Assembly: GCF_029625315.1 (NCBI RefSeq)
Contig: NZ_CP121110.1
Coordinates: 1,541,501 to 1,605,500 of the forward strand
Length of the DNA stretch: 64,000 nucleotides
Direction of reading: 5' to 3'
DNA from: Flavobacterium ginsengisoli
GTDB taxonomy: Bacteria; Bacteroidota; Bacteroidia; Flavobacteriales; Flavobacteriaceae
Part shown: positions 29,192 to 47,556 of the stretch, in pieces
Position numbering within the stretch: the first letter of the stretch is position 1
Layout: each line of letters opens with the position of its first letter
The notes under the pieces: generated by a model
Databases searched by the model: none
What the model was told of the DNA's origin: nothing
The model's input: only the letters and a program-made list of their open reading frames with translations
Made by a program: the position numbers and the translations under genes

Positions 29192-29241
29192 AAAAAAAGC
29201 TGTTATTACAGATTATTCAATCTGTAATAACAGCTTTTACA
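29192..29241 (-). terminator. Terminator at the end of the PUL
   Basis: Strong hairpin: AAAGCTGTTATTACAGATT pairs with AATCTGTAATAACAGCTTT. On the minus strand it is followed by a T run. It ends the GH43-like transcript. Confidence 0.9.
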
Positions 29242-29258: not shown

Positions 29259-31175
29259 TTATTTTATTTCAATAATCTTATTTTTTGTTCCGATTCCGTT
29301 TTCATTAAAAGGCTCAATTGTAAAATAATATTTTGTGCCTTTATCCAAACCTCTAAAATCATACGTATTGTCACCATAAACCATAATGCTGTTATACAAT
29401 TTATCTGGTTCGATTCCATAATAAATATTATAACCAATTGCATCTGCTTGTTTTTTCCATGAAATCATAGCGTTTCTAGAATCTGCTTTGTTTCTATCTA
29501 CTTTGAAAGAAGCCACCGATTTTGGTTTTGTCGCCAATCCGTTTCCAAAAACTCTGAAATCAGAGATTGCAAATAAACCAGATGCATTGTGAATATTTTC
29601 CATTTTGATATAACGCGCTTTGATCGGTTTTGTAAGTTCTACATAATCGTGAGGTGCATCTTTATCGTTTTTAGATTTATCTACTACCAAAGTCCAATTT
29701 TTAGCATTGTCAGACATAAAGATTTTATATTGATAATAAATATCCATTGCTTTATTAAACTGTGTCGCTTTATGATCTGCGTAATTAATCTGCAAAGCAT
29801 TTATTTCCATTTGACGACCTAAATCCATTTGAAGCCATTCTCCCAGATTATTAGTTTTTGCCGACCAATAGGTTTGAATGTTTTCATCTGTTAGATTTTC
29901 TGGTCCGTAACAGAACTTCTCATATACTTTTTTCCCTCCATTATCCATTCTATGGGTTTCCACTTCCATACATTCCTCAGAAGAAGAAACAGTTACTGGC
30001 TTTTTATACGAAAGTAACATCCATCCTGAAGCAGCACCTTTAGTTTGATCACGCTGGCTTGTTGGCAATACAATTGGAAAATCTCCATAAGCTGTAATAG
30101 AATACATTACATCATCTTTATCAAATCCTGCTGGAAACATATCTATACGACGTTCGAAACGATCTTTAATAGAAATTTTGCATGTTCCAGTATTCCAGTA
30201 GTTTCCATAATTATCGGCAAAAGTGTTTCCATGTCCAGCTCCAATTACAAATCCGCCTGGTTTATATGACATCGGATTGTGTTTCTGATATGTAAACGGC
30301 CCTAATGGATTATCTCCCACATGAACTCCATTTGCATAACCTTTAAACTCTGTTGCAGGAGCTCCGTATTGCATATAATATTTTCCGTTATGTTTGGTCA
30401 TCCAAGCTCCTTCAATAAAATTTCCCCAAGGTGCAGGTTCCATATCATTATTTGGCCCAAAACGTTCCCATCCGTGAGCTGAAGGATCTAAAATGGCAAC
30501 TTCTTTAATTTGTCCGTAAGGTTTTTGAATATCCTCTACTTCTGTCGCTTTATACAAAGTTGCATAATCAGCCTGATTTCCTTTTGGAAGCCAAGTATTA
30601 TAATCAACTTCTACTCCAACAAGTGGTAATTTTCCGCTTGAACCGTAGTACATGTATACTTTTTTATCATCATCCTGAAAAATTGCAGGATCCCAAGTTG
30701 GAAGCATTGCTTTATCTACATGACGTGTCCATCTTCCTGATTTTGGATCAGCTGTTTTCCAAATTGGATGGTCTCTTTTCCAAGTTGAACCAACATAAAA
30801 TAATGTATCGTTTACAACCCAAGCTGCAGGAGCACATTGGTCGTCGTCGCCTGGCTGTCTTTGAAAACTTCCGTAAACAAAATTCCAGTCTGACATATCT
30901 TTACTCCAAAAGAAACCTGCCTGATTGGTAGCAAATAAATAATATTCGCCTTTATAAGTAATAATTACAGGATCGGCGCTTGAACGGCGTGATTCTGGAA
31001 TTCCGTTGTGATTATGAGTCGTAAAATTGTATCCAATATTTATCGGATTACAATAGGTTGTTGCGGGTCTGCTAGGGTCAAACCATTCTGTTTTACCAGA
31101 ATTTTGAGCCAAAAGAGTGCTTCCGAAAAGCATCGAAAACAAAATCGGCGTAAGTTGTTTATATATCTTTTTCAT
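29259..31175 (-). CDS. GH43-like glycoside hydrolase with F5/8 type C and fibronectin type III domains
   Basis: A 638-residue secreted enzyme (signal peptide to about residue 23, LLAQ). The N-terminal five-bladed propeller has the acidic residues of GH43: SADPVIITYKGEYYLFATN, PTWDPAIFQDDDKKVYMYYG and FIEGAWMTKHNGKYYMQYG. A discoidin-type carbohydrate-binding region follows (LTDENIQTYWSAKTNNLGEW to AISDFRVFGNG) and the C-terminal ~90 residues are a fibronectin III domain ending in IIEIK. The linkage cleaved cannot be read from sequence. It is the last gene of the PUL, next to the GDPD gene. Confidence 0.87.
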   Translation of the reverse strand: MKKIYKQLTPILFSMLFGSTLLAQNSGKTEWFDPSRPATTYCNPINIGYNFTTHNHNGIPESRRSSADPVIITYKGEYYLFATNQAGFFWSKDMSDWNFVYGSFQRQPGDDDQCAPAAWVVNDTLFYVGSTWKRDHPIWKTADPKSGRWTRHVDKAMLPTWDPAIFQDDDKKVYMYYGSSGKLPLVGVEVDYNTWLPKGNQADYATLYKATEVEDIQKPYGQIKEVAILDPSAHGWERFGPNNDMEPAPWGNFIEGAWMTKHNGKYYMQYGAPATEFKGYANGVHVGDNPLGPFTYQKHNPMSYKPGGFVIGAGHGNTFADNYGNYWNTGTCKISIKDRFERRIDMFPAGFDKDDVMYSITAYGDFPIVLPTSQRDQTKGAASGWMLLSYKKPVTVSSSEECMEVETHRMDNGGKKVYEKFCYGPENLTDENIQTYWSAKTNNLGEWLQMDLGRQMEINALQINYADHKATQFNKAMDIYYQYKIFMSDNAKNWTLVVDKSKNDKDAPHDYVELTKPIKARYIKMENIHNASGLFAISDFRVFGNGLATKPKSVASFKVDRNKADSRNAMISWKKQADAIGYNIYYGIEPDKLYNSIMVYGDNTYDFRGLDKGTKYYFTIEPFNENGIGTKNKIIEIK

Positions 31176-31206
31176 GGTTAGATTTCTTTAATAAAGTTTA
31201 AGAAGA

Positions 31207-31979
31207 TTAGTTTTTGACTTCCTTTCTTTCCTTTAAAAGTTCAGGTTCATTTGTGGTGATGTAATTGAATTTATGAGCTATAATCCAATCCATATCTTTT
31301 GCGTCATTAACAGTCCAAGCATTTAAGATAATCTTATTGTCTTTAGCTTCCCGTATCCATTCCGGTGTTTTTGAAAAACAGAATAGTGATAGTCAACCCC
31401 ATTAATTTTATCTGCTTTTACTTCTTTTGGAGATTTATTTCCTTCTAAATATTGAAGAGAGGTTTTAGAATCTATTTCTCTAATTTTCTTTAGAATATCA
31501 TAATCAAAACTGATGTAGCAGGTATTTTTATTGGCTTTTAGTTTTTTAATGGTTTCGACAGCTGCTACAGCAGTTTTTTGTCCTCTTTCTTTACTAATTT
31601 CCGAAGGTTTAATTTCGCACACTAAAAGAGTGTGTTTATTATTACGCATTCCTTCTGAAATATATTCGTGAAGGGTTGGAAGTTTTTCTCCGTTAGAAAG
31701 TTTAAATTTTATCAAATCTACATAATTCGTTTCTTCAATAAGCAGTTTGTTGTAATGTGCGTCGTGATTAATAACAAGCGAATCGTCTGCAGTTCTCCAT
31801 ACATCAAATTCTGAACCTGGCAATTTTAAATCAATCGCATGTCTTAAAGATGCAATTGAGTTTTCGGGAAGATTGTTTTTTTTCCATGCACCTCGATGCG
31901 CTACAATTGCATTCTTTTGTGCATTACAAAATGAAAAAGCAATAAGACACACTGCACTAAATATTTTAATTTTATTCAT
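31207..31979 (-). pseudogene. Secreted glycerophosphodiester phosphodiesterase (GDPD), frameshifted
   Basis: Hydrolyses glycerophosphodiesters to glycerol 3-phosphate and an alcohol. Reconstructed to 257 residues from MNKIKIFSAVCLIAFSFCNA (signal peptide). Active-site motifs: IVAHRGAWKKNNLPENS (His-Arg and Glu), GSEFDVWRTADDSLVINHDA (acidic metal ligands plus second His) and LLVCEIKP. The frame breaks at the T5 run 31368-31372 (plus strand). One more base gives KTPEWIREAKDNKIILNAWT, then VNDAKDMDWII, completing the barrel. It lies between the GH3 and GH43 genes on the same strand, an unusual partner in a PUL. Confidence 0.88.
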
Positions 31980-32023
31980 AATAATCGTAGTTAAAAAATT
32001 ACAAAAAAGGTTATTCATTTTAG

Positions 32024-32053
32024 AAAAAAAGCCCTCCAAACGAAGGGCTTTTA
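32024..32053 (-). terminator. Terminator after the GH3 gene
   Basis: AAAAGCCCTTCG and GGAGGGCTTTTTTT on the minus strand form a hairpin with a T run, between the GH3 stop and the GDPD start. Some read-through is expected. Confidence 0.8.
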
Positions 32054-32071
32054 ACTAATCAAATAAACCAA

Positions 32072-34373
32072 CTATTTAGTTAACTCAAAACTAACTTTCT
32101 TATCAGCGTTTGAATTTCCTCCAACGAAAATATCAAACTGCCCAGGCTCGGCTACGAATTGTAAATCAGAGTTATAAAATTTTAAATCTTCAACAGTAAT
32201 ATCAAAACTTACTATTTGTTTTTCACCTTTTTTAAGTGCTATTTTTTGGAAACCTTTCAATTCTCTAACTGGTCTAGTTACTGAACCAACTAAATCTCTA
32301 ATGTATAATTGAACTGTTTCTTTTCCGTCAAAATTTCCAGTGTTTGTTACATCAACAGTTACTTTCAATTTTCCGTTAGAATCCATCTTATCAGAAGAAA
32401 TTTTCAAGTTTGAATAATCGAAATTGGTATAGCTCAAACCAAATCCGAATGGGAATAATGGCTCGTTTCTTTCGTCAATATAATTTGATCTGAATTTTTC
32501 AAATTTTCCTTCTGTGTTAGAAAGTGGTCTTCCTGTATTTTTGTGTGCGTAGTAAATTGGTAATTGTCCCACGCTTCTTGGGAAAGTTGAAGTCAATTTT
32601 CCTGAAGGATTTACATCTCCAAATAAAACATCAGCAATAGCGTAACCAGCTTCTGTACCAGCAAACCAAGCATTTAAAATTGCAGGTACTGTTTTTTCTT
32701 CGTCAGTAATTACTAACGGACGTCCGTCAAATAAAACCAAAACAACTGGTTTTCCTGTTTTTAATAAAGCGTTTAATAAATCTTTTTGCGCTTGTGGAAT
32801 TTCTAAGTTTGTACGGCTGCTAGATTCACCGCTCATTTCTGCAGATTCTCCTAAAGCGAGCAACAATTACATCAGATTGTTCAGCAACTTTTAAAGCTTC
32901 TGCTAATAATTCTTCTTTTGTACGAGCATCACGGTGTAATGTTTTACCGAACATTGTGGCGTTAGTTTCAAAAGTTTCATCGTAATCTAAATTGCTTCCT
33001 TTAGCGTATAAAACTTTAGTTCCTGTTCCAGCTACTTCTTTGATACCTCTCAATAATGAAACAGCATTTTCCATTTTTGTAGCCACACTCCAAGTTCCTG
33101 GCATGTTTTCTTTAGCATCTGCCAATGGCCCGATTAAACCAATTGTTCCAGATTTTTTAAGAGGCAACAACTGATTTTGGTTTTTTAATAAAACTAAAGA
33201 TTGAGTCGCAATATCACGTGCTTCTTTTCTGCTATCTGTTGTAAAGATTTCAGTTTTAGCTCTTTTTTCATCACAATATTTGTATGGATCTTGGAATAAA
33301 CCTAAATCATATTTTGCTTCTAAAATAAGTTTTACAGCGTTATCGATTGTTTCGATTTTTACTTTTCCTTCATCTAAAGATTTTTTCAAAGTTCCTAAGA
33401 AACCTTCTCCAACCATATCCATTTCAACTCCAGCGTTTAATGCTAAAGCAGAAACTTGCTGTAAATCACCCATTCCGTGAGGAATCATTTCAGGAATTCC
33501 TGTAAAATCGGTTACTACAAATCCTTTGAAGCCCCATTGTTTTCTTAAAACATCTGTCATTAACCATTTGTTACCTGTTGCTGGAATTCCGTCAACTTCG
33601 TTGAAAGAAGCCATAACCGAACCTACACCTGCATCAACTGCAGCTTTGTAAGGAGGAAAATAATCATTAAACATTCTGATGTGGCTCATATCAACTGTAT
33701 TATAATCACGTCCACCTTCTGGAGCACCATATAATGCGAAGTGTTTAACACAAGCTAAGATTGAGTTATTTTTAGTAAGATCGTGCTGTTGGTAACCATT
33801 AACCATTGCTTTTGCAATTTGGCTTCCTAAATATGGATCTTCTCCTGAACCTTCAGAAACTCTTCCCCATCTTGGGTCACGAGAAATGTCAACCATCGGA
33901 GAGAATGTCCAGTTGATACCGTCTGCGCTTGCTTCTTTTGCGGCGATTTGAGCACTTCTTTCAATTAAGCCCATATCCCAAGTACAAGATAATCCTAACG
34001 GAATTGGGAATGTTGTTTCGTAACCATGAATAACGTCCATACCAAAAAGCAACGGAATTTTTAAACGGCTTTTTTCAACCGCAATTTTCTGTACTTCTTT
34101 AATTTTTTGAACTGATTTAATGTTGAACAAACCGCCCACTTTTCCTTCAGCAATATTTTTTGCCACATTTGAGCTGTTTGCCTGCCCAGTGGTAATATCA
34201 CCAGATGTTGGCAAGTTTAACTGACCCAATTTCTCGTCTAAAGTCATTTTTGACATTAATTCCGCCACAAATTCAGACTTTGGTTTAATTTTCACTGTAT
34301 TTTTAGCTGGCTTTTTTTGAGCATAACCCAAAACAGCGCATCCTAAAAAAAGTAAGACTAATTTGTTTTTCAT
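32072..34373 (-). pseudogene. bglX: GH3 beta-glucosidase (BglX type), frameshifted
   Basis: Periplasmic exo-beta-glucosidase, 766 residues reconstructed, with signal peptide MKNKLVLLFLGCAVLGYAQ. The N-terminal barrel carries the nucleophile in FKGFVVTDFTGI, with GRVSEGSGEDPYLG and KHFALYGAPEGGRDYN before it. The C-terminal part has VLVLFDGRPLVI, then PLFPFGFGLSYTNF and a fibronectin-III-like end. One extra base in GCGAGC (32856-32861) breaks the frame in the second domain; GCAGC restores DVIVAALGESAEMSG. Known GH3 relatives in Bacteroides release glucose from beta-1,2- or other beta-gluco-oligosaccharides, which suits the neighbouring GH144 gene. Confidence 0.93.
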
Positions 34374-34383
34374 TCTATTCTAT

Positions 34384-35097
34384 TTATTTGTTTGTATTCG
34401 TTTTTCTTTGCTGAAACATCCAGTCGTAGATCTCTTTGTTATCATAAACTCTTGTCCAGCTGTCATGATTTGCATCATCAAAAATGGTCAGCTTTACATC
34501 TTTTGCATTACATTTTTTCAATTCATTATAAATTGTGATTGCATAATTCACATTTACCACATTATCCTGTAATCCGTGGAAAATTCTGGTTGGAATATTG
34601 GCTATTTCACATGCTTTTTCTAACTGAATTAAATCTACAAAGCCAGCGACAGGTACGTTTGCGGCAAATAGATCAGGATGTGCAAAAGCCAAATTCCATG
34701 AAGCCCAACCTCCTGAGCTTAAACCAGTAACATATATTCTTTCTGAATCAATTTTATTTTCTTTCTGAATTTTCACAATCAGCTGGTAAATTGATTCTAT
34801 ATCCCAATTTTCGTCTTCTTTGCATTGTGGAGCCAAAACATAAGCATCTAATTGGTTCGTTTTTAAATATTTTAAAGGCCCATTAATTTTTACCTTTTCT
34901 AAATCGGTTCCTTTTTCTCCATCACCCGAAATAAAAACAATTAATGGCTTCTTCTCCTTAACATTCGCTGGACGATGCAAAACATAACCCAGTTCGTATT
35001 TAGACATTATAACCGTATTGATTTTCCCAGTTGTTTCACTCTGCCCAAAAACAACTACAGAAAACAACAGAAATATAAATGCTAATGTATTTTTCAT
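34384..35097 (-). CDS. Secreted CE1-like alpha/beta hydrolase (esterase)
   Basis: A 237-residue secreted esterase (signal peptide ending in VVFGQ). The Ser nucleophile is in YVTGLSSGGWASWNLAF (about residues 121-137), the Asp is likely in FHGLQDNVVNV and the His in DDANHDSWTRVY. The ISGDGEKG motif supplies the oxyanion region. This is the pattern of PHB-depolymerase/CE1-like esterases, which remove acyl groups from polysaccharides. It lies between GH144 and GH3, with 6 and 10 bp spacing, so it belongs to the PUL operon. The acyl group removed is unknown. Confidence 0.87.
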   Translation of the reverse strand: MKNTLAFIFLLFSVVVFGQSETTGKINTVIMSKYELGYVLHRPANVKEKKPLIVFISGDGEKGTDLEKVKINGPLKYLKTNQLDAYVLAPQCKEDENWDIESIYQLIVKIQKENKIDSERIYVTGLSSGGWASWNLAFAHPDLFAANVPVAGFVDLIQLEKACEIANIPTRIFHGLQDNVVNVNYAITIYNELKKCNAKDVKLTIFDDANHDSWTRVYDNKEIYDWMFQQRKTNTNK

Positions 35098-35103
35098 AGA
35101 GAC

Positions 35104-36481
35104 TTAAATTCCGTATTTTCCAGATTTAAATCCAAGTTTTGTTAAACCTTGTTTTACTTCTGGCGCGTTCATAAACAATTTCCATAATAGGCCTGTTCTG
35201 TAATTTTCAATCATTACAACTTCAGGACCTTGATCAATTGCTAAATAACGTTTTGCAACCCATTTATTTCCTAAACTCAAAGCATCATAAAAACCAGCAT
35301 CTCCCCAAGTTTCGTCTTTATGATTTTCGTATAAATTTCTGATTACGGCCATCGATTCTTTTGGCGTGTAAACAATTGAGCTGATTGCTGCCGTTGGCGA
35401 AATTACACCTTGATCATTGCTTGGCATATGTGCGTTGTATCCAATTGATCCATCAGGGTTTCTAGAATAAGAAGCTGTTAAACCCCAATATTCTGGACCA
35501 TAACCTGCATTTTTATTTGGATTTTGAACACAATACTCATAATTGATTTTAGTCTGATTTACATTTAAATCCCAATAATTAGCATATTTATCTGTTAACT
35601 GATTCGGATCTAAACCTACATAAGAATAATGAGCCCAAAATAATGGACCGCCAAATTCTTCTGCACCGTTGTGCTTTAAAATAAGTGGGATATTGTATTT
35701 TGTTTTTGAAGAAACTATGCCACCGCTTCTCGCCCATCCTTCGTGATATGCTTTCGCATCGATTGTATGAGTTGGCGAAGATGCTGCCATTACATAAGTA
35801 ATAAGGCATTCGTTATATCCTTGTAGTGGGAAATTCATCTCCCAAGCATAGCTCGGAGACCAGTGCCAATATAAGACATTTTTTTGATTTGTGTACCATT
35901 GCCAATCAACACCTTTCCAAAGTGCATCATATTTTGCTCGCAACAGCTTTCTCTTTTTCATTACCTGTCTTTAGATATTCTCGAACAGTAATAAATCCTG
36001 ATACTAAAAATGATGTTTCAACTAAATCTCCTCCATTATCTTTAGTCCCAAAAGGTTTTACCTTTCCAGTATTTCCGTCAATCCAGTGTGACCACGCTCC
36101 ATGAAAGCGATCTGCTTTTGCAAGGAAATCTGCAATTTTGTCTAATCTTTTTACTCCTTCTTCTTTAGACACATATCCTCTATCTATTCCTGCAACTAAA
36201 GCCATTAATCCGAAACCTGAGCCACCTGTTGTTACAATATTTGAATCGTTTTCAGGATAAACTCCGTCTGGATGATAACGTTCTCTGGCTAATCCAGAAT
36301 TTGGTTCTGCATAATCCCAGAAGTATTTAAAAGTTTGTTTTTGAACAGCATCTAAAAGCTGCTCATCTGTTAATGCAGTAACGCCAGAAGTATTTTCCTG
36401 TACATTTTCTTTTGACTTATCTTCCTTTGATCCACAACTAAAAAAAGCAAAAGCTAAAAATAAAACTGAAATTCTAACCAT
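35104..36481 (-). pseudogene. GH144-type glycoside hydrolase lipoprotein (glucoamylase-like fold), frameshifted
   Basis: Reconstructed to 458 residues. The N-terminus MVRISVLFLAFAFFSCGSKE is a lipoprotein signal followed by charged residues, as in surface-exposed lipoproteins. The (alpha/alpha)6 domain has DLVETSFLVSGFITVREYL, YWHWSPSYAWEMNFPLQGYN and then ECLITYVMAASSPTH, later AEEFGGPLFWAHYSYVGLDP and ISPTAAISSIVYTPKES. Databases call such proteins putative glucoamylase (PF10091), but characterised Bacteroidota members are GH144 endo-beta-1,2-glucanases. One extra base in GCTCGC (35936-35941) breaks the frame; restoring GCTGC gives AVAAKYDALWKGVDW. Confidence 0.87.
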
Positions 36482-36508
36482 TATAAAAATTTAAGATTTT
36501 TGATAAAT

Positions 36509-36543
36509 AATCACTTCCCTCAGGAAATCTGAAGGAAGTGATT
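36509..36543 (-). promoter_or_regulatory. Hairpin between susD and the enzyme genes
   Basis: AATCACTTCC and TCAG pair with CTGA and GGAAGTGATT around a 5-base loop. There is no long T run after it on the minus strand. It could trim or stabilise the susCD mRNA and lower expression of the enzyme genes. Confidence 0.6.
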
Positions 36544-36556
36544 CTTAAGATTTTGA

Positions 36557-38014
36557 TTAATAACCAGGGTTTTGCTGTGAAAGTGTTCCTGCTTCTCTCA
36601 TAAATGTAGTTGGAAGAGGCCATAATTCATGTTTTCCAACTATAAAAGTTTTACCATCTGCTGCCATAGCCGCTTCTGCTTGTCCTGTTCTAACGATATC
36701 AAACCATCTGTCGTGCTCAAAAGCAAATTCTAATCTTCTTTCTTTATAAATTGCTTTTCTAATATCAGTTTGAGAAGTAAAAGGAGTATCTCCTAAACCT
36801 GCTCTATGACGAATTTGATTTACTAAAGGAATTGCTGCTGCTGTTTCTCCTAATTCGTTTAATGCTTCAGCTTTCATTAGTATAACCTCAGCATATCTTA
36901 AATATCTAAGATTTGTATCTGTAAATTCTTGGTTATAAAAAGATGATGAATATGCTTTATAATTATATCTTGCATTCGCTACCGTAGATGGAACTTCTCT
37001 ACCATCATACAAAACTGAACCTCTGAAAATAATTGTAGTGACTCTTCTAACGTCTCCTGCCTCGTAAGCGTCTGCTAAGCCTTTAGTTGGTGTATTGAAT
37101 CCCCAACCCCATCCTCCGGCACCACGTGGCGCTTGAGAAACAGTGTAATTTCCAATTCCAAATCCAGGGCTAGAAGTTCCTCCAATCCCATCAATCTCAA
37201 AAATAGATTCTGGACCAAATTCTCCTTCTTTTTTATATTGCAAAGAATAATCAGAAACTAAAGAATAACCAGTTACTTTATCGCAATTGTCAATTACTTT
37301 TTGCCAATTTTTTTGATATAGATTAACTTTTGCTAATAAAGCATATGCTGCTCCTTTAGAAGCTCTTACGACATCTTTACCAGTGTATGCCGATTTTTCT
37401 GGTAAATTCGCAATAGCATCTGTTAGGTCTTTTTCTATAAAAGCATAAACTTCTGCAGGAGTTTTACGGGTTAATTGCATAATTCTGTCTGAGTCATTTC
37501 CAGGAATTGGCAAATGATCTACAATAGGAACTCCGCCGTATCCTTTAACTAAAGTAAAGTACATAAACGCTCTCATAAATTTAGCTTCTCCTTCTAACCT
37601 AACTTTTAAACTAGGCGTTACCTGATCTAACTTAGGAAATATAGCCAAAGCCTGATTACATCTATTAATTCCAGCATAATTTGCATTCCACGTAGACTGA
37701 AATGACGGAGTTGAAGCATTATATGTTAAAGCATCCATAATATCTTTATCTCCACCAGCATCTCCGGGATCAGAGCCTTTATCAGCATCATCGCTAATGA
37801 TACTTGTAACTGCATTCCAACCAAAAGAAGACATATCCCAGCCTAAAAATTGATTGTAAATTGCTGTTACAAAACTTGAAGCTCCAGCATCACTATTTAC
37901 CAAAGTTGGGTCAGCAGGAATAGACTCTGTTGGCTCTACATCCAAAAAATCATTTGAACATCCAGATAAGAATAATCCAGAAAGTACAAACATTGATATA
38001 TATATTCTTTTCAT
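36557..38014 (-). CDS. SusD-like (RagB/SusD) outer membrane glycan-binding lipoprotein
   Basis: A 485-residue surface lipoprotein (lipobox FLSGCSNDF, Cys 19) that binds glycan and caps the SusC channel. Family features: ADPTLVNSDAGASSFVTAIYN at the start, MRAFMYFTLVKGYGGVPIVD (TPR region), VRASKGAAYALLAKVNLYQK, LRYLRYAEVILMKAEALNEL and IYKERRLEFAFEHDRWFDIVRTG at the end. It sits 4 bp after the susC stop. The glycan cannot be read directly, but the locus suggests a beta-glucan. Confidence 0.95.
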   Translation of the reverse strand: MKRIYISMFVLSGLFLSGCSNDFLDVEPTESIPADPTLVNSDAGASSFVTAIYNQFLGWDMSSFGWNAVTSIISDDADKGSDPGDAGGDKDIMDALTYNASTPSFQSTWNANYAGINRCNQALAIFPKLDQVTPSLKVRLEGEAKFMRAFMYFTLVKGYGGVPIVDHLPIPGNDSDRIMQLTRKTPAEVYAFIEKDLTDAIANLPEKSAYTGKDVVRASKGAAYALLAKVNLYQKNWQKVIDNCDKVTGYSLVSDYSLQYKKEGEFGPESIFEIDGIGGTSSPGFGIGNYTVSQAPRGAGGWGWGFNTPTKGLADAYEAGDVRRVTTIIFRGSVLYDGREVPSTVANARYNYKAYSSSFYNQEFTDTNLRYLRYAEVILMKAEALNELGETAAAIPLVNQIRHRAGLGDTPFTSQTDIRKAIYKERRLEFAFEHDRWFDIVRTGQAEAAMAADGKTFIVGKHELWPLPTTFMREAGTLSQQNPGY

Positions 38015-38018
38015 GATA

Positions 38019-41000
38019 TTAAAATTTTAAATTTGCACCTACAACAAATGATCTCAATGATGGGTATGCATCTAGCTCAACACCCTGAGTACCTTCAACT
38101 AATTTACCATCAGACACTACATCTGGAGAGAATCCAGAGAATTTTTGTGTAATAAATGGGTTAATTGCGTTTACATATAATCTGCAATAGCTAATAAAGT
38201 TGTTCTCTTTTATTGGAAGTTTATATCCTAAAGTGATGTTATTTATTCTAAAGAAATCAGCAGACTCTAAGTAATACGTTGAAGCGTAAGGAGTCAAGTT
38301 TGAAGGCGCTGGAATTGAAGATGTAGTATTTGTAGGTGTCCAAAAACCATTAGCCATAGAAGCTTCTACATTTTCTCCTCCAAATCTTTGTGCTTTTTTT
38401 CCATTATATACTTTTGCTCCTCCTGTTCCGTAACCATCAACAGAAAAGTCAATGTTTTTGTATGTCAATCCTAAAGTAACTCCATAAGTAGAAGTTGGTA
38501 AAAGAGAACCTACATATTTTTTATCTTTAAGTTCATCTAAGCCAGTCTGAGGAACTTTAGAACCATCAGCTTTGTAATACAGCATTTGACCATTTGTTGG
38601 ATCAACTCCTGCGTACTCATACATATAAAAGCTACCTAATGGTTGACCTACTGATGTATTATCCAAAATTTTGGTATTTTGACCATTCCCTAAACTTCCT
38701 CCAATAATTGGATTTAGCTGAACATTTTTAAGACTCGTAAGTTCATTTTTATTATGAGAGAAATTCCCACCAACCCAATAGCTTAAATTATCATTGATTT
38801 TATCATCCCAACGCAATGCAATTTCATAACCTTTGTTAGACACTTCACCAACATGTGCAGGAGTAGCTAATGTAATTCCTGAAGTTGAATATGGTTTAAC
38901 ATTCAAAATTGTGTTTGTTGTATTTTTATCATACAAATCAAAAGATCCTTTTAATCTGCTATTAAACATTTCAAAATCAAAACCTCCTGAAAGTTCTTCC
39001 ACAATCTCCCATGATAAATTAGGATCAACCTGAGAATTAATTGTAGTACCTGAACCAAGATCTGGATAATCTACCCCTGAAGTGAATACTTGAGTATTAA
39101 GAGGTACATTTTGATTCCCTAATCTACCCCAAGATCCTCTAAGTTTTAATAAATTAATTGGCTCTACATTACTTAAGAAGCTTTCTTTTGAAATAATCCA
39201 TCCTAAACCAACAGAAGGAAATGTTCCCCAACGATTGTCTTCACTAAATTGTGATGAACCGTCACGTCTCACTGTACCAGTAAGCAAATATTTATCCATT
39301 AATTTATATTGAAAACGAGCAAAATAAGATGCCAATCTTCTTTGATTAAGTGCTTCATCTTTATAACCTGTTACATCAGCTACATTGTTAACATCTTTCA
39401 AAGACCAATAATTAGAATTTGGATTTACATTTTTTCTGTCAATCGTTAACTTTTCTCTTGTACCTTGAACATTCGCCTCAATACCTGCTGTAACTTCTAC
39501 ATCATGAATTTCTGCAAAAACCTTATTATAAGTTAAATAGTTTGATAAATTCCAATTAAAATACTCATCTCTGCTTCTGGTCAAAGTATTTTTATTTAAA
39601 TCTAAAGGATATTTTTCTACTGTACGAGTAGGATCTGCCGATAACCAAAGAGCCACATTATCTACATAATTATACTGTTTGTAAGTATAATACTCTCCAT
39701 TAAATTGTGATGTGAATTTTAAAGATTTAAGAATATCCCAATCTAATTTTAATCCTCCTTGCAAAGTAACCGATTTTTGCTGTTCATTTGTATAATCTAA
39801 TTGAGCCACTGGATTTCCAACATTATTAAAAGATGTACCCGTTTCAGATACTACTCCGTTTGAAATAAATGGTACTCCATACTTACCATCCGCATAACGA
39901 ACAGGAACTAATGGTGATTGTCTGTAAGCATTTGTAAATGCGCTCAAAGGCATTGGCGTATTTTTAATATTACTTACACTAAAATTTTGAGTTAATTTAA
40001 CTTTTTCTGAAAGCTTGAACTCATTGTTATTTCTAAAAGTAGTACGTCCATAATCAGATCCGTTTAAAATTCCTTTTTCTTCATAATTTCCAAGACTGAA
40101 AAAGTATTTTACATTTTCTGAAGAACCTGAAACAGAAATATTGTTCTGAGTGTAAGACCCTGTTCTTGTAATTGCGTCTAACCAATTTGTGTTATACGGT
40201 TGATTAGCAGAGAATCTACCTTGTGGAAAATCGTTACTATAAGCGGCGTTACTGTAACGAACATACTCATCAGCATTTGCCATTTTTACAGTTTTTAACG
40301 GAGATCTAACTCCTGCAAAACTTTCGACATCTACAGTAAGTTTTCCTTTTCCTGCTTTGGTTGTAATCATAATTACACCATTTGCACCTCTAGTACCATA
40401 AATAGCTAATGAAGAAGCATCTTTTAATACTTCGTAAGATGTAATATCATTAGTATTAATGTTATTGATGTTATCAGTTGGCATACCATCTACTACATAT
40501 AAAGGATTTCTTCCTCCTAATGCAGTACCTGCTCCCCTGATCACAACTGATGGAGTACTTCCTGGCGCATCTGAGGTAGATACCTGAACCCCAGCAGCTT
40601 TTCCTTGAATAGCTTGAGAAGCATTCATTACTTTCATTTTGGTAATTTCTTCGGACTTAATTGAGCTAACCGCCGAAGTATTATCAATTTTCTTTCTAGT
40701 ACCGTACCCAATTACAACTACTTCTTTTAAGGCAGTATCTCCTGCTTCTTTTAAAGTAATAGTCATTGTTGCGGCAGTAGCTGGTACAGAAACTGAATCA
40801 AAACCCAACATAGAGACTTTTAGAATATCTCCAGGTTTTGCATTAATTGTAAAGTTTCCGTCGAAATCTGCGTCTGCAGTTGCCCTAGCGTCAGCTGAAG
40901 CAATTATTGCTCCTGGAACTCCCATTCCATTACTGTCAACTACTTTTCCTTTGATTGCTTGCGTTTGCCCCATCATATATGTAGGCAATAGCAAGAGAGC

Positions 41001-41027
41001 TAAAAAGCTAAAAATAAAATTTTTCAT
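38019..41027 (-). CDS. SusC-like TonB-dependent outer membrane transporter
   Basis: A 1002-residue TonB-dependent transporter of the SusC/RagA class that imports oligosaccharides with SusD. After the signal peptide (YMMGQTQ) comes a carboxypeptidase-regulatory-like domain (IKGKVVDSNGMGVPGA). The plug contains MNASQAIQGKAAGVQVSTSD, PSVVIRGAGTALGGRNPLYV and YGTRGANGVIMITTKAG. The 22-strand barrel ends SLRSFVVGANLKF. It is the first structural gene of the PUL, preceded by a 244-bp gap with repeated TACATCA sites. Confidence 0.96.
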   Translation of the reverse strand: MKNFIFSFLALLLLPTYMMGQTQAIKGKVVDSNGMGVPGAIIASADARATADADFDGNFTINAKPGDILKVSMLGFDSVSVPATAATMTITLKEAGDTALKEVVVIGYGTRKKIDNTSAVSSIKSEEITKMKVMNASQAIQGKAAGVQVSTSDAPGSTPSVVIRGAGTALGGRNPLYVVDGMPTDNINNINTNDITSYEVLKDASSLAIYGTRGANGVIMITTKAGKGKLTVDVESFAGVRSPLKTVKMANADEYVRYSNAAYSNDFPQGRFSANQPYNTNWLDAITRTGSYTQNNISVSGSSENVKYFFSLGNYEEKGILNGSDYGRTTFRNNNEFKLSEKVKLTQNFSVSNIKNTPMPLSAFTNAYRQSPLVPVRYADGKYGVPFISNGVVSETGTSFNNVGNPVAQLDYTNEQQKSVTLQGGLKLDWDILKSLKFTSQFNGEYYTYKQYNYVDNVALWLSADPTRTVEKYPLDLNKNTLTRSRDEYFNWNLSNYLTYNKVFAEIHDVEVTAGIEANVQGTREKLTIDRKNVNPNSNYWSLKDVNNVADVTGYKDEALNQRRLASYFARFQYKLMDKYLLTGTVRRDGSSQFSEDNRWGTFPSVGLGWIISKESFLSNVEPINLLKLRGSWGRLGNQNVPLNTQVFTSGVDYPDLGSGTTINSQVDPNLSWEIVEELSGGFDFEMFNSRLKGSFDLYDKNTTNTILNVKPYSTSGITLATPAHVGEVSNKGYEIALRWDDKINDNLSYWVGGNFSHNKNELTSLKNVQLNPIIGGSLGNGQNTKILDNTSVGQPLGSFYMYEYAGVDPTNGQMLYYKADGSKVPQTGLDELKDKKYVGSLLPTSTYGVTLGLTYKNIDFSVDGYGTGGAKVYNGKKAQRFGGENVEASMANGFWTPTNTTSSIPAPSNLTPYASTYYLESADFFRINNITLGYKLPIKENNFISYCRLYVNAINPFITQKFSGFSPDVVSDGKLVEGTQGVELDAYPSLRSFVVGANLKF

Positions 41028-41083
41028 ACAGTACGTAATCGTTTAAGTTAGTAGAGCCAAATTAAGCAATTACAACGTTGTAG

Positions 41084-41210
41084 TACATCAAATAACACTA
41101 CAGCATAGCTACATCACTGTGTTAAATTTTAACTTTACCTTAATGATTATCAGCACTATAAATGTTAACAAAAATTCTTTAACATATCGTTATGATGTAG
41201 TAATGATGTA
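41084..41210 (-). promoter_or_regulatory. Repeated TACATCA/TGATGTA sites upstream of susC
   Basis: TACATCA at 41084-41090 and 41110-41116, and its complement TGATGTA at 41193-41199 and 41204-41210. Four copies in 127 bp between the regulator stop and the susC start. They could be binding sites for the adjacent LuxR-type regulator. No clear -7 box was found here. Confidence 0.5.
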
Positions 41211-41271
41211 TCGCAATTATATAAAAAATGATATTGAAAAATATAAAATCTGTAAAAAACAAAACCAAATC

Positions 41272-44016
41272 TTACAGACTTAATAAAAACTTTGACAGAT
41301 TTTCGTCCTGTGTGAGGTTTAGCTTCTTTCTAAGGCGATATCTATGCAATTCTACGCCTCTAAAAGAGATATTCATCATTGGAGCAATTTCCTTAGAGGA
41401 AAGATTCATTTTAAGATAAACACACAGTTTTATATCCTTAGGAGTTAATTGAGGATATTTTTTAGAAAGATTAATAATAAATTCATTGTGAATTTGGTTC
41501 AAATTGGTTTCAAAAGTTTCCCATTCATGTTTATTCACTTCATTAATCTTAATTGCTTTTCTAATTTCGTTTTTAAGTTTGCCAAAATCTTTTTCCGTTT
41601 CCAAAATGCCTTGAATTTTATCAATCATTTCCGTTTGCTTGGCGATCGACAATGATTTGCCCGCTACTTCTGAAGATTTTGCTTGCAATTCTAATTCTAA
41701 GATGTGTTTCTCATATTCTTGAATGTTGAGTTCATTTTCTTTCTTTAACTCCATTTCAAGAATTTCTCTCTGATGTTTTAATTCTTCAGCCTGCAATTTT
41801 AATTTTTGCATATAACGAAGTTTATTCCACTTATAATAGAAAAACAAAACAGTTCCGATAATAAGAAGGTACAGTAGAATCATCCAAAAAGAAAAATACC
41901 AAGGTTCGGCAACTTTAAATTTGTAAAATGAAACTTTGTCATAAGTTGCTCCATCATGTTTGAATATTTCTACTGTATGATAACCGCTGTTTAAATTATT
42001 TAAAACAATCAATCCGTCAGAAATTGGGAGAAAATCTTTTTCTTTATCTAGCTTATAAAATAAATTTGGTTTACTAGCTCCATAAATTCCAGAAATGACA
42101 TTAATCTTTAATTCTGTATTGAATTTTATTTTCTCATCAATTGGAACTAAAACGTCATTACTAAATGCTTCAATTTTTACTTCTGAGTTTTGTCTATTTT
42201 CATATTGAAGTTTAAGAGAAACAAATCCGTCATCTAGATTAAACAAATAATAATTGCCTTTCTTGAAAATTCTTAGATTCTCATTAATCAATTTCCCTTT
42301 GTAATATTTCTCTTGAATGATATTCCAAACAAACTTGTTGCCTTGCGCATAAATATGATACAAGATTCCATTTTGCAAAACCATAAAATGATCGTCGTCT
42401 ATAGAAACGACATCGGTCACATTTTTAAAATTTGTATTAAACAATTCGTTTTCTTCCAATTTAGCAGATAAAGAATTGTAGGTATACCAAGAATTATTAA
42501 TAAGAAAGAGTATTTCTTTTCTAAACTCAAAAATCTTTATACCAAAATCATTTTGCATCTTACTCTGCTGCGTGACATTTTCAACTTTTAGAGTATTATA
42601 GTTGTCATCTAACGAAACGCGATATAAACCACGGTAATTATCGGCTGCCCAAATTTCATTTTTTTTGTTTTGAGCAACATATTTTATTGGTTTGGCAAGA
42701 TCTTTTATGATTTTATAATGAGACATATTAGAAGGATCATCGTAAACCAAAATTCCGCTATAGGTAGACTGAAAATAAGTATCATTAATACTGCTTTTAG
42801 ACATATTCCATCCTCCGCTAACTCCGTTTATTTTGGTCAAAGTATTATTTTCATACGAAAAAGTACCGTCGTTATGACCAATAATATATTTTCCGTCAAT
42901 TTGAGAAATATTCCAGCCTTGCCCTTGCGTATTGGGCATCATATTAAATTTTCCAGCACTGTATTCAAAAATACCGTGATTTGAAGCAATTAAATAGCCT
43001 TTATTAATAGATGCCACCGCATAGACCGATCCTAAAATACCCGAATTATCGTAAAAGAAAGAAATAGGAGAATTAACCTCAACGTGCGCAATACCATTAT
43101 CTAAACCAACCCACAAATCATTTTCTTTATCCAATCCTAAACTTAAGACTGAATTATTCATTAGAACATTGTCGCGCTCAATATTTTTAAAGGAATTATT
43201 TTTTAGATCTAAAATGAAAATTCCGCGATTTCCGGTTCCAATAATTAACTTTTCGTTCTTAACAAACTTAGCCACATTAATTGTAGCCGATTTTAAAGTT
43301 TCGTTTATCGGACGATCCCAACTTTTTAATCCATTCTTTTCTACAATAAAAACTCCCTTTTTCTGTGTAAAGATGTAAGTCTCATTTTTATATTTTTCTA
43401 TAGCATGAACAACTGTATTTTTTAAAACATTCCATCCCTTTGGATTTGCAATATGTTTGCCATTCATTTTATAAATTCCGTCTTTAACAGAAGCAACATA
43501 TAAATTGTTATCTACACCAAAACAATAGGAAATAAGAAACGGAAATTTAATTTTCTTAATTGTTTTTCCATCATAAATAAAAACATCATTAAAAGACTGA
43601 AAATAAAGAGAACCTTTGAATCTGAATATTTTCCAGATTTCTTCGTTGTCTTTTTCATCAAATAATCTGAGGTTTTTGGTAATAGAAACATAATGCATTG
43701 TTCCATCTTTTCGATACCAATAGCCAAATTCTTTATAAGAACCAGAATAGATTTTATCTCCTTCAATAAGAATAGATCTAATAATGGTTTTGTTTGGCAG
43801 TGTATATTTTTCCCATTTTACTCCGTCGTAACGAAGCAAATAGTGATTATTTGCAAAGTACATCGCATTATCATTTCCTTGAGCCACATTCCAGATTTGA
43901 TTATCTCCCTGATAATCTGATTTGCTGTAATTTTCGACAAATGGAAGTAATTCTTGAGCCTGAAGTTGTAAAGCGATGAAAAAGAAGAAAACTGATTTAA
44001 AAAGTATCGATTTCAA
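41272..44016 (-). CDS. Membrane-tethered sensor/regulator: propeller and Y_Y_Y sensor, coiled coil, LuxR-type HTH
   Basis: About 914 residues. The start was chosen at the TTG giving LKSILFKSVFFFFIALQLQA, a signal sequence; a longer ORF starts inside the -7 box. The periplasmic part (about 25-660) has propeller-like repeats (NQIWNVAQGNDNAMYFANNH, NDLWVGLDNGIAHVEV), then a Y_Y_Y-type domain. One transmembrane helix (WYFSFWMILLYLLIIGTVLF) leads to a long coiled coil and a C-terminal LuxR-type helix-turn-helix (LTPKDIKLCVYLKMNLSSKE, then SFRGVELHRYRLRKKL). No histidine kinase is present. It is the likely activator of susC, just downstream. Confidence 0.87.
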   Translation of the reverse strand: MKSILFKSVFFFFIALQLQAQELLPFVENYSKSDYQGDNQIWNVAQGNDNAMYFANNHYLLRYDGVKWEKYTLPNKTIIRSILIEGDKIYSGSYKEFGYWYRKDGTMHYVSITKNLRLFDEKDNEEIWKIFRFKGSLYFQSFNDVFIYDGKTIKKIKFPFLISYCFGVDNNLYVASVKDGIYKMNGKHIANPKGWNVLKNTVVHAIEKYKNETYIFTQKKGVFIVEKNGLKSWDRPINETLKSATINVAKFVKNEKLIIGTGNRGIFILDLKNNSFKNIERDNVLMNNSVLSLGLDKENDLWVGLDNGIAHVEVNSPISFFYDNSGILGSVYAVASINKGYLIASNHGIFEYSAGKFNMMPNTQGQGWNISQIDGKYIIGHNDGTFSYENNTLTKINGVSGGWNMSKSSINDTYFQSTYSGILVYDDPSNMSHYKIIKDLAKPIKYVAQNKKNEIWAADNYRGLYRVSLDDNYNTLKVENVTQQSKMQNDFGIKIFEFRKEILFLINNSWYTYNSLSAKLEENELFNTNFKNVTDVVSIDDDHFMVLQNGILYHIYAQGNKFVWNIIQEKYYKGKLINENLRIFKKGNYYLFNLDDGFVSLKLQYENRQNSEVKIEAFSNDVLVPIDEKIKFNTELKINVISGIYGASKPNLFYKLDKEKDFLPISDGLIVLNNLNSGYHTVEIFKHDGATYDKVSFYKFKVAEPWYFSFWMILLYLLIIGTVLFFYYKWNKLRYMQKLKLQAEELKHQREILEMELKKENELNIQEYEKHILELELQAKSSEVAGKSLSIAKQTEMIDKIQGILETEKDFGKLKNEIRKAIKINEVNKHEWETFETNLNQIHNEFIINLSKKYPQLTPKDIKLCVYLKMNLSSKEIAPMMNISFRGVELHRYRLRKKLNLTQDENLSKFLLSL

Positions 44017-44034
44017 GATATTCGTTTTTAAACC

Positions 44035-44042
44035 CAAAGATA
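44035..44042 (-). promoter_or_regulatory. Flavobacterial -7 box TATCTTTG (minus strand)
   Basis: Plus-strand CAAAGATA. Matches TAnnTTTG, 18 bp before the chosen TTG start of the sensor/regulator. Confidence 0.5.
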
Positions 44043-44062: not shown

Positions 44063-44098
44063 CAAAAAAAACTCCTCAAGCTTGAGGAGTTTCTTTTG
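44063..44098 (-). terminator. Terminator between ackA and the regulator
   Basis: ACTCCTCAAGCTTGAGGAGT is a perfect palindrome with A8 on its plus-strand left side, which gives a T run on the minus strand. It ends the pta-ackA transcript. Confidence 0.85.
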
Positions 44099-45461: not shown

Positions 45462-47556
45462 TTACATTCCTTGTGCTTGAATCGCGGTAATTACCACTGT
45501 ATTGATAATATCATCAACTGTACAGCCACGGCTTAAATCGTTTACAGGTTTGTTCAAACCTTGTAGCATTGGCCCAATTGCCAAAGCTCCAGTTTCTCTT
45601 TGAACAGCTTTGTAGGTGTTATTTCCTGTATTCAAATCTGGGAAAATTAATACGCTGGCTTGCCCTGCAACCTCAGAATCTGGCATTTTGCTCTTTCCTA
45701 CGCTTAAATCAACTGCTGCATCGTACTGAATTGGTCCTTCAATTTTTAAATCAGGTCTTTTTTCTTTTACAATTGCTGTAGCCGTTCTTACTTTATCAAC
45801 CTCATCTCCTTTTCCTGAAGATCCAGAAGAATAAGAAAGCATTGCTATTTTTGGTTCAATTCCGAAAGCTAAACTTGATTCTGCAGAAGAGATCGCAATT
45901 TCTGCCAATTGCTCTGCTGTTGGGTTTGGATTAATGGCACAGTCTCCAAAAACAGAAACTCGGTCTTCTAAACACATAAAAAATACAGAAGAAACTACAG
46001 AAGAATTGGGTTTTGTTTTGATGAATTGCAAGGCTGGTAATATAGTATGTTGCGTTGTATGCGCTGCACCAGAAACCATTCCGTCTGCGTGACCTTTGTA
46101 TACCATCATGGTTCCAAAATATGATACATCTTCCATTAAATCTCTTGCCATTGTAATACTTACGTTTTTAGCTTTTCTAAGCTCATAATACGTATTAGCA
46201 TAATCCTCATACATTTCAGATTCTATCGGATTGATGATATTTACTTTAGAAAAATCAAATGTAATTCCGAGTTCTGCAACTTTACTTTCGATTTGTTTTT
46301 TGTCTCCAATAATAGAAATATCAACCACATCCATGTCTAACAATCTTGATGCTTGCAGTAATAATTCTATCATCATTTCCTTCTGGCAATACGATATGTT
46401 TTCTATGCTGTTTGGCTCTTTTAACCATGTTGTACTGAAACATTTTTGGAGTCATACCTTCTGGCTGAAAAGTAATTACTCTTTGCGATAAAGCTTCAAT
46501 TTCAACATACTTTTCAAAAGTATTAATTGATGTTTCAATTTTGTGTGTATTGTTAGCGTAAATCTCCGATTTAATCGAACCAATTTTATTGGTAATATGG
46601 TAAGTTCCCCCATCAACAGCAATAATTGGCACAATAGGAGAAAGTCCATCAATAAGCTTTAAAATACTTTCTTCTGGAACAATATTTCCTGTTAGAATAA
46701 TTCCTGAAATCGTCGGGTAATTTGCCGATTCATTTGCTTGTAAAGCTCCTAAAATAATATCTGAACGATCTCCTGGAGTAATAACTAAAGCATTGTCATG
46801 CAAATGCACTAAATAATTGTGCAATTGCATCGCTCCAACACTGTAATGCCCAATTTCGTTATTGAGATAATTTTCTCCAAATAAAACTTTAGCATTCAAT
46901 TCGTGTACAATCTCCTGCATTGTTGGGTTATTAAGGCTCGATATCAACGGAATTGTATTAACCAGCACATTTGATGGTAAACTTTTTTGCAAACTACTGG
47001 TAACCAACTCTATATTTTCTGGTTGCACTTTATTAGCAAAAACCGATAAAACCTCAACTTCTTTTACTTTAAAAGAATCATAAACCAAATACAAACTGTC
47101 TAAAAGCTCTTCTAAGGTTTTACCAACTCCAGAACCTACAATTATAGTTGGAATTCCAAGGTTTTTTGCAATTAAAACATTTAAATCTAATTCGATTGAA
47201 GTTCCTTCACCCGTAAAGCTAGTTCCTTCAACCAAAACAAAATCGAAACGTTCTTCGAGTTTTTTGTATTTCTCGATAATGGTGTCTAAAACTTCTCCTA
47301 TTTTTCCTTTATTCTTTTTCTTAATCAATCTGCTTTTGGTAATGGCATAAGCATCATCAAACTCAATATCTAGGTTAAAATAGGATAAAACTGTTTCGAT
47401 ATGATTATCTACTTCTCCATCAACAAAATCTTCTATTATAGGTCTAAAATACCCTACTTTGGCCGTTTTACCAATCAGAATACTCATTAATCCGAGTGTA
47501 ATAATTGATTTACCACTATTATGGTCGCTAGTGGCTATATATATTGCTTTACTCAT
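45462..47556 (-). pseudogene. pta: Phosphate acetyltransferase (long form), frameshifted in this assembly
   Basis: Interconverts acetyl-CoA and acetyl phosphate; it feeds ackA. Reconstructed to 697 residues, the usual long form. The N-terminal P-loop-like domain has ATSDHNSGKSIITLGLMSIL and a DRTGG region (VITPGDRSDIILGALQAN). The C-terminal catalytic domain has VLPEGNDDRI, then HGVADGMVSGAAHTT-like KGHADGMVSGAAHTTQHTIL, FGDCAINPNPTAEQLA, MLSYSSGSSGKGDEVDKV and FPDLNTGNNTYKAVQR. One extra base in GCTTGC (46351-46356) breaks the frame; GCTGC restores RIITAASRLLDMDVVDI. Confidence 0.94.

Follow-up and report, generated by a model that had tools for sequence, protein, structure and literature searches.

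The subject of this analysis is a polysaccharide utilization locus (PUL) in a 64,000-nucleotide stretch of Flavobacterium ginsengisoli DNA (hereafter the window), which lies at C1:1541501-1605500 of a 5.41 Mb single-contig genome (G000). Judging from its gene families it is very probably a beta-1,2-glucan PUL, and the best explanation of its gene content, which we favour by a modest degree, is that it represents a decoration-removing variant of the known PULs of this kind, in which a glycerophosphodiester phosphodiesterase (GDPD) would act beside the glycoside hydrolases (GHs). All eight components are encoded in the same direction on the minus strand (29259-44037), with families backed by Pfam profile search: a regulator, SusC, SusD, GH144, a probable esterase, GH3, the GDPD and GH43. 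The locus therefore has the SusC/SusD pair, the co-directional glycan enzymes and the regulator by which a PUL is recognised, and its gene order is conserved across the genus Flavobacterium. The initial annotation had placed eight PUL components close together on this strand, which is borne out by Pfam and TIGR profiles. Gene content, the identity and key residues of the GH144 enzyme, conservation, linkage and the variation at the accessory position are established computationally. The link of the phosphodiesterase to GH144 is real but lineage-limited. Papers are cited below for individual passages.

Backbone enzymes

The GH144 gene (35104-36481, minus strand), a predicted beta-1,2-glucanase with a lipoprotein signal judged by eye, appears in the window as two open reading frames (ORFs), 35104-35961 and 35927-36481. 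The C-terminal piece matches PF10091 (9.7e-80) and the N-terminal piece matches no Pfam family. The GH144, GH3 and GDPD genes are each split between frames in the window assembly, and for the enzyme comparisons intact relatives were used in place of the broken copies. An intact GH144 from the same species (L031) aligns with CpSGL (5gzk/5gzh) at about 1e-180 (2.5e-180 for 5gzh) over residues 14-453 of 458. CpSGL is the nearest solved match (604 bits), followed by 4qt9 (575 bits) and 3eu8 (561 bits), which are named only as putative glucoamylase. Read off the alignment, CpSGL residues D135, D139, E142 and E211 are all conserved; mutation of any of the first three drastically lowers CpSGL activity, and the clan-defining position is occupied by E211 (PMC12102758). 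Because the GH144 is close to CpSGL and keeps these key residues, beta-1,2-glucan is the likely backbone substrate, as the initial annotation had proposed for this lipoprotein. Since the GH144 family includes an exo-type enzyme as well (PMC11842490), endo action is likely without being certain. Among the genus PULs, the C-terminal GH144 piece shows identities of either 71-98% or 57-64%. GH144 domains are also found in proteins of 1421-1481 residues in three Flavobacterium genomes (L073, L074 and L082), with PUL partners absent around them.

The GH3 gene (32072-34373, minus strand; PF00933 5.7e-76, PF01915), also split in two ORFs, encodes a putative beta-glucosidase of the BglX type. The L031 copy clears the BglX cut-off (966 vs 666 bits). 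The match of the GH3 to 5xxl is full-length (1098 bits), but 3u48, 5tf0 and 9urf score higher. We take 5xxl to be linked to the characterised BT_3567-type GH3.

The import genes and the enzymes do not always agree in their divergence. In L037, L039 and L041, SusC and SusD are 62-73% identical to those of the window (36557-41027), in contrast to 94-99% for GH3, GDPD and GH43, and in L059 a GH144 of 64% identity stands beside a GH3 of 96%. From these identities the import pair, and sometimes the GH144, seem to have been exchanged among close relatives.

Linkage of the GDPD to GH144 loci

The secreted GDPD is encoded at 31207-31979 (minus strand), between GH3 and GH43. Its start is probably the ATG at 31979, and its end was taken from tblastn pieces, the tail being in another frame. 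Among 121 genus genomes, 51 have GH144 and 30 have a GDPD match at E<=1e-20, of which 24 show at least 72% identity (PUL-type GDPD). In each of these 24 genomes no more than about 4 kb separates the GDPD from GH144, and a PUL-type GDPD is absent from all 70 genomes that lack GH144 (Fisher 1.7e-11, uncorrected for kinship). Identity is 39-62% for the GDPDs of the six remaining genomes and for an additional copy in G053, and none of these is at a GH144 locus. Genomes of at least 4.7 Mb account for 23 of the 24, the exception being a 75% complete assembly (G074), and the GDPD may mark a large-genome clade.

Loci were taken for 52 of the 56 genus GH144 matches (those of G000, G019 and G104 and one of G062 being left aside), together with nine Flavobacterium loci from a phylum sample, and 58 of the 61 fetched loci carry SusC. 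Profile labels were given at a cut-off of 50 bits (30 for LamG, GH16 and Exo_endo_phos), with domain-limited profiles for GDPD, GH16 and the accessory families and a Pfam check on a subset of proteins. GDPD matches in L126, L136 and L084_8620 were dropped, the profile having caught the GH16 part of fusion proteins, as the tree exposed. Some loci are held under two names (L083/L143, L061/L199) and are repeated in the tree, hairpin and 130-domain counts, and Flavobacterium rows were thinned in both GDPD trees and in the GH144 tree. The 58 SusC loci contain GH3 in 56 cases, GH43 in 50, the esterase in 44, LamG in 28, the GDPD in 26, GH97 in 13 and a sulfatase in one.

GDPD and GH97 do not occur together in any of the 58 loci (Fisher 2.1e-4). 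A quick tree of the regulators from 54 loci requires five changes for the GDPD, ten for GH97 and 13 for the state with neither; GH97 and 'neither' are hardly clustered, counts as low being found in 135 and 141 of 500 shuffles, respectively. On this tree the GDPD looks like the product of few gains with losses, and GH97 looks as if it comes and goes.

Outside the genus, a sample of 296 phylum genomes has GH144 in 103 and the GDPD subfamily (E<=1e-15) in 35. The GDPD is a neighbour of GH144 in all eight Flavobacterium genomes with a GDPD and in one (G268) of the 25 other genomes with both genes; these neighbourhoods were read by eye and are lower bounds, split contigs hide neighbours, and the GH144 place of G343 is missing from the matches listed. 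A named survey was seeded with the G268 GDPD, and the best 80 of 575 confirmed loci were used. In these, GH144 lies within 10 kb of the GDPD in all 22 Flavobacterium loci and in 10 of the 58 others, the latter not being a random sample because the seed comes from a GH144-linked locus. The ten are labelled as Chitinophagaceae (eight), Chitinophagales (one) and Bacteroidetes (one). GDPD and GH144 are separated by 1-132 bases in five of them, by 777-910 bases with an esterase between in three, and by 5-7 kb in two. The hypothesis that the GH144-linked GDPDs form one clade is rejected (p 1.9e-53, for a group named post hoc from the tree), and on a quick GH144 tree the GDPD-link label is forced to change seven times. 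The rejection and the forced changes argue for at least two separate origins of the association. L184 (long branch) was excluded from the one-clade test, L202 (a repeat) from the larger GDPD tree, and L143, L077 and L081 from the GH144 tree.

The accessory position

One position of the related loci is taken by GDPD, by GH97 or by neither, as though to suit glucans with different decorations. In the genus loci the GDPD lies between GH3 and GH43. Of the 13 GH97 genes, seven lie in that same interval, four lie between GH3 and the M28 peptidase gene where GH43 is lacking, and two (L058, L066) come after GH43. The position is preceded by a terminator-like hairpin, which in the window lies at 32032-32046 (minus strand). 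By a hairpin-plus-T-run threshold of our own setting, with no shuffle control and with some loci counted twice, the hairpin is present in all 47 GH3-GDPD gaps of the genus loci and, where the GDPD is lacking, in all 17 GH3-GH43 gaps. Elsewhere it is found in 30 of 47 SusD-GH144 gaps, 5 of 48 GDPD-GH43 gaps, 2 of 62 GH144-esterase gaps and 0 of 64 esterase-GH3 gaps, the last two kinds of gap being much shorter and therefore an imperfect control. The single GH97 protein compared (L110) matches alpha-glucosidases, including SusB, at 1e-238 or better in its first six entries, in contrast to 1e-58 for alpha-galactosidases. Because Xanthomonas, Ralstonia and Rhodobacter make alpha-1,6-closed beta-1,2-glucans (PMC11228985), this suggests that GH97 would be used on glucans of that type. 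Sulfatases were found by Pfam in two related GH144 loci, L115 and L118.

The GH43 gene (29259-31175, minus strand), which also encodes F5/8C and fn3 domains (PF04616 2.5e-16, PF00754 2.9e-18), had been left unexplained in the initial annotation. It has no close relative among the solved structures, to which it gives weak matches only. It is no oddity, since its subfamily (E<=1e-60) occurs in 59 of the 296 phylum genomes and within about 25 kb of GH144 in 32 of these (all 14 Flavobacterium genomes and 18 of 45 others, by eye and as lower bounds). It accompanies GH144 repeatedly and is not a chance feature of this window. PF04616 is recognised, and D68, D162 and E255, which we take to be the Asp/Asp/Glu triad, are invariant in 14 of 14 sequences.

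The GDPD family and its GH16 relatives

The GDPD matches PF03009 (4.2e-15; 56.9 bits, cut-off 23.6), and the seven catalytic positions (His, Arg, Glu, Asp, His, Glu, Lys), matched to GlpQ by motif, are kept in 130 of 130 GDPD domains in any context. At E<=1e-15 there are 5330 homologues, and the organism-named ones among the 120 listed are from Flavobacterium. The nearest solved chains, 7ww4/7wwc, are named as beta-1,3(4)-glucanase and match at about 2.6e-58 over about 190 residues. All five long GDPD relatives tested consist of GDPD plus GH16, and Sphingobacterium GH16 proteins in a wheat-straw secretome carry the GDPD name (PMC4666044). In a first GDPD tree, five proteins from GH16 or SusC loci form the sister group of the Flavobacterium GDPDs (96/92). 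In a larger tree the sister group has ten members, of which five have GH16, two have SusC/SusD only and three have neither (85/76). An Exo_endo_phos protein occurs in some GDPD-GH16 loci and in one related locus (L088 and L099 by Pfam; L098, L100 and L216 by profile). Five GDPD-GH16 fusions (L098-L102) include four in SusC loci and three with an Exo_endo_phos match, and these are possible loci for a phospho-substituted beta-glucan.

Proposed function

We propose that the PUL targets the beta-1,2-glucans of other bacteria, either osmoregulated periplasmic glucans (OPGs) or cyclic glucans, as a variant that would handle their substituents. SusC and SusD would import the glucan, GH144 would cut its backbone and GH3 would trim the oligosaccharides to glucose. 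The position behind GH3 and the conserved hairpin would be an accessory one, filled in relatives by GDPD, GH97 or neither gene. The GDPD would most likely hydrolyse a glycerophosphodiester substituent (phosphoglycerol), allowing full digestion of the chain, and the esterase would most likely remove acyl groups. The two enzymes would fit the phosphoglycerol and succinyl groups that are documented on OPGs and cyclic glucans (PMC3818809, PMC11071196, PMC11842490), succinyl being described as the most widely distributed substituent (PMC4726272). We would put the chance that the GDPD acts on a phosphoglycerol substituent of beta-1,2-glucan at even or a shade better. The substrates and the role of the esterase are inferred, and the removal of phosphoglycerol is plausible but unproven.

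A number of observations weigh against this reading. The five GDPD changes on the regulator tree mean that the genus counts are not independent. In the phylum sample the GDPD is linked in only 9 of the 103 GH144 genomes, so it is not universal in GH144 PULs; its absence from most other GH144 loci counts against the proposal of the initial annotation by that annotation's own standard. The GDPD was also absent from all 19 chosen SusC-bearing GH144 loci outside the genus, which have GH3 in 15 cases, GH43 in 10, the esterase in 10 and a sulfatase in four. The 58 non-Flavobacterium loci of the named survey (best 80 of 575) have GH16 fused or nearby in 16, GH144 in 10 and neither in 32. Because GH16 partners are at least as frequent as GH144, the GDPD appears to track beta-glucan loci in general and is not specific to OPGs. 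The earlier statement that a GDPD in a PUL is unusual does not hold for this subfamily, which is often fused to or beside GH16. Within the locus, GH97 is at the position of the GDPD in only seven of 13 loci, the hairpin parts the GDPD from the GH144 portion, and 3u48, 5tf0 and 9urf score higher than 5xxl with the GH3. The stereochemistry is the main difficulty. GlpQ is strictly sn-3 specific and phosphatidylglycerol carries sn-1 groups (PMC7086022). Since phosphatidylglycerol is the donor of OPG phosphoglycerol (PMC3818809), the GDPD would have to differ from GlpQ.

An enzyme that scavenges phosphate or glycerol from lipid-derived glycerophosphodiesters or teichoic-type polymers, and is a mere neighbour of the PUL, would agree with the GlpQ stereospecificity (PMC7086022), with the hairpin ahead of the GDPD, with the size of the family and with the 32 of 58 loci that have neither GH144 nor GH16 nearby. 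It is harder to reconcile with a PUL-type GDPD that is at GH144 in every one of the 24 genomes that have it and never accompanies GH97, and with relatives tied to GH144 or GH16 in separate lineages, GH16 fusions included; we regard it as rather unlikely. The group removed could also be another phosphodiester (phosphoethanolamine, phosphocholine or an unknown phospho-substituent), the same group being present on the substrate of the GDPD-GH16 loci. The occurrence of the GDPD in both GH144 and GH16 loci and the Exo_endo_phos proteins of some of the latter would be consistent with this, and E. coli OPGs bear phosphoethanolamine too, but there phosphoglycerol exceeds it (PMC3818809). The catalytic positions are those of ordinary GDPDs and the mechanism proposed for GlpQ needs the free C2 hydroxyl of glycerol (PMC7086022), which leaves this alternative with a small probability. 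The name of 7ww4 suggests that the GDPD fold might have taken on a new role, as a glycosidase or a domain for binding, but we consider this extremely improbable: the GDPD aligns only with the first part of this 480-residue chain, and all 130 domains keep the catalytic positions. We rejected the view that the GDPD domain is itself a glucanase, since the name probably fits a presumed GH16 part of 7ww4, as the composition of the five long relatives indicates.

It could further be argued that the frame breaks are real and that the locus is decaying in this strain. The breaks fall in GH144, GH3 and GDPD alike; strains truly differ, 146 of 195 coding substitutions relative to the same-species genome G088 being synonymous (ten genes compared); and coding gaps, unlike the intergenic ones, which sit in homopolymers of 7-9 bases, are outside long homopolymers. 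Against this, 14 of 53 ORFs lack one-frame cover of at least 95% when compared with G088 (ORFs of at least 120 residues, in the compared parts of the window only, by tblastn); 13 of these run on in a second frame, including the neighbouring gene pta (45462-47556), and one is partial. The locus is intact in G088, with ORFs of 458 (GH144), 766 (GH3) and 277 (GDPD) residues, and completeness is 95.5% for the window genome vs 100% for G088. Because the breaks are scattered over unrelated genes and the same-species genome is intact, they are likely to be assembly errors, and we judge true pseudogenisation very unlikely, the position of the coding gaps notwithstanding. The 13 second-frame ORFs across the window suggest many small assembly errors in the genome.

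Returning to the removal of decorations, the observations could be joined in a wider proposal, which we offer tentatively and think rather doubtful as a whole. The accessory position would be a swappable slot matched to glucan chemistry: GDPD for phosphoglycerol glucans, a GH97 alpha-glucosidase for alpha-1,6-closed glucans of the Xanthomonas, Ralstonia and Rhodobacter type, a sulfatase for a sulfated form and an empty slot for undecorated chains. As a glucan phosphodiesterase that releases sn-glycerol-1-phosphate, opposite in stereochemistry to GlpQ, the GDPD would be of a kind not described before, and the substrate of its relatives with a fused GH16 would be an as yet unrecognised beta-glucan with phospho-substituents. 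Beta-1,2-glucans of the periplasmic and cyclic kinds are common among bacteria, often carry charge and play a part in symbiosis and infection. If the proposal is true, the form of glucan that an organism encounters could be predicted from the gene in the accessory position, and the GDPD could serve to take off the phospho-group. In open-licence PubMed Central papers we found neither a GH144 PUL described as containing a GDPD nor an account of an enzyme that removes phosphoglycerol from beta-1,2-glucans. A 2025 review states that the substituted positions in OPGs have not been identified (PMC11842490).

Other features of the locus

The regulator gene (41272-44037, minus strand) is kept upstream of SusC in most genus loci. 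Its product is probably a sensor in the membrane that regulates transcription, and it has a LuxR-type helix-turn-helix. Its Pfam support is weaker than that of the other components, with GerE at 2.3e-6 and Reg_prop (9.5e-4) below the cut-off, and signal and transmembrane segments were judged by eye. SusC, a TonB-dependent importer (38019-41027; TIGR04056 9.5e-222, TIGR04057), and SusD, a glycan-binding lipoprotein (36557-38014; PF07980 7.2e-33, PF14322 3.6e-30), follow on the same strand, and the solved SusD relatives compared gave no substrate. A LamG-domain protein is encoded between SusD and GH144 in many loci (for example L112 by Pfam, L198 and L200; 28 of the 58 genus loci) and is perhaps a surface glycan-binding protein. 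The window has no gene at this position.

The probable esterase (34384-35097, minus strand) is a secreted alpha/beta-hydrolase (PF00326 4.4e-15) whose nearest solved chain is the esterase 3doh (4.3e-24). The CE1-like label that it had been given is no more than approximate, since all its matches are to alpha/beta-hydrolases of a general kind (Peptidase_S9/Abhydrolase, PHB-depolymerase-like). The locus is flanked by ackA/pta on one side and an M28 peptidase gene on the other. A 20-pair terminator-like inverted repeat on both strands (29195-29238), between GH43 and the peptidase gene, marks its downstream end, and a further terminator-like repeat at 44069-44092 was flagged on the plus strand only. 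The stretch has 16 terminator-like sites, compared with 7.2 expected.

Comparison with known systems

The GH144 beta-1,2-glucan PULs of Bacteroidetes (PMC6499787) are like the present locus in GH144, GH3 and SusC/SusD, and CpSGL, which belongs with them, is the nearest solved enzyme. The cited passages of that paper mention the addition of a sulfatase, not of a GDPD, whereas here a GDPD lies between GH3 and GH43. The marine GH144 loci with a sulfatase (PMC6499787; Maribacter dokdonensis, PMC8072126) offer the same combination of a GH144/GH3 PUL and a remover of a charged group; in them the group is sulfate, whereas here it would be a phosphodiester. The GDPD-GH16 proteins and loci (7ww4/7wwc; Sphingobacterium, PMC4666044) share the GDPD subfamily, and some are in SusC/SusD loci, but their GDPD is fused or adjacent to GH16, while here it is a separate protein found with GH144. 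GlpQ and UgpQ share the PF03009 domain and the usual catalytic motifs with the GDPD of the window, which falls below the NCBIfam GDPD equivalog cut-offs (48.9 vs 264 bits for the best).

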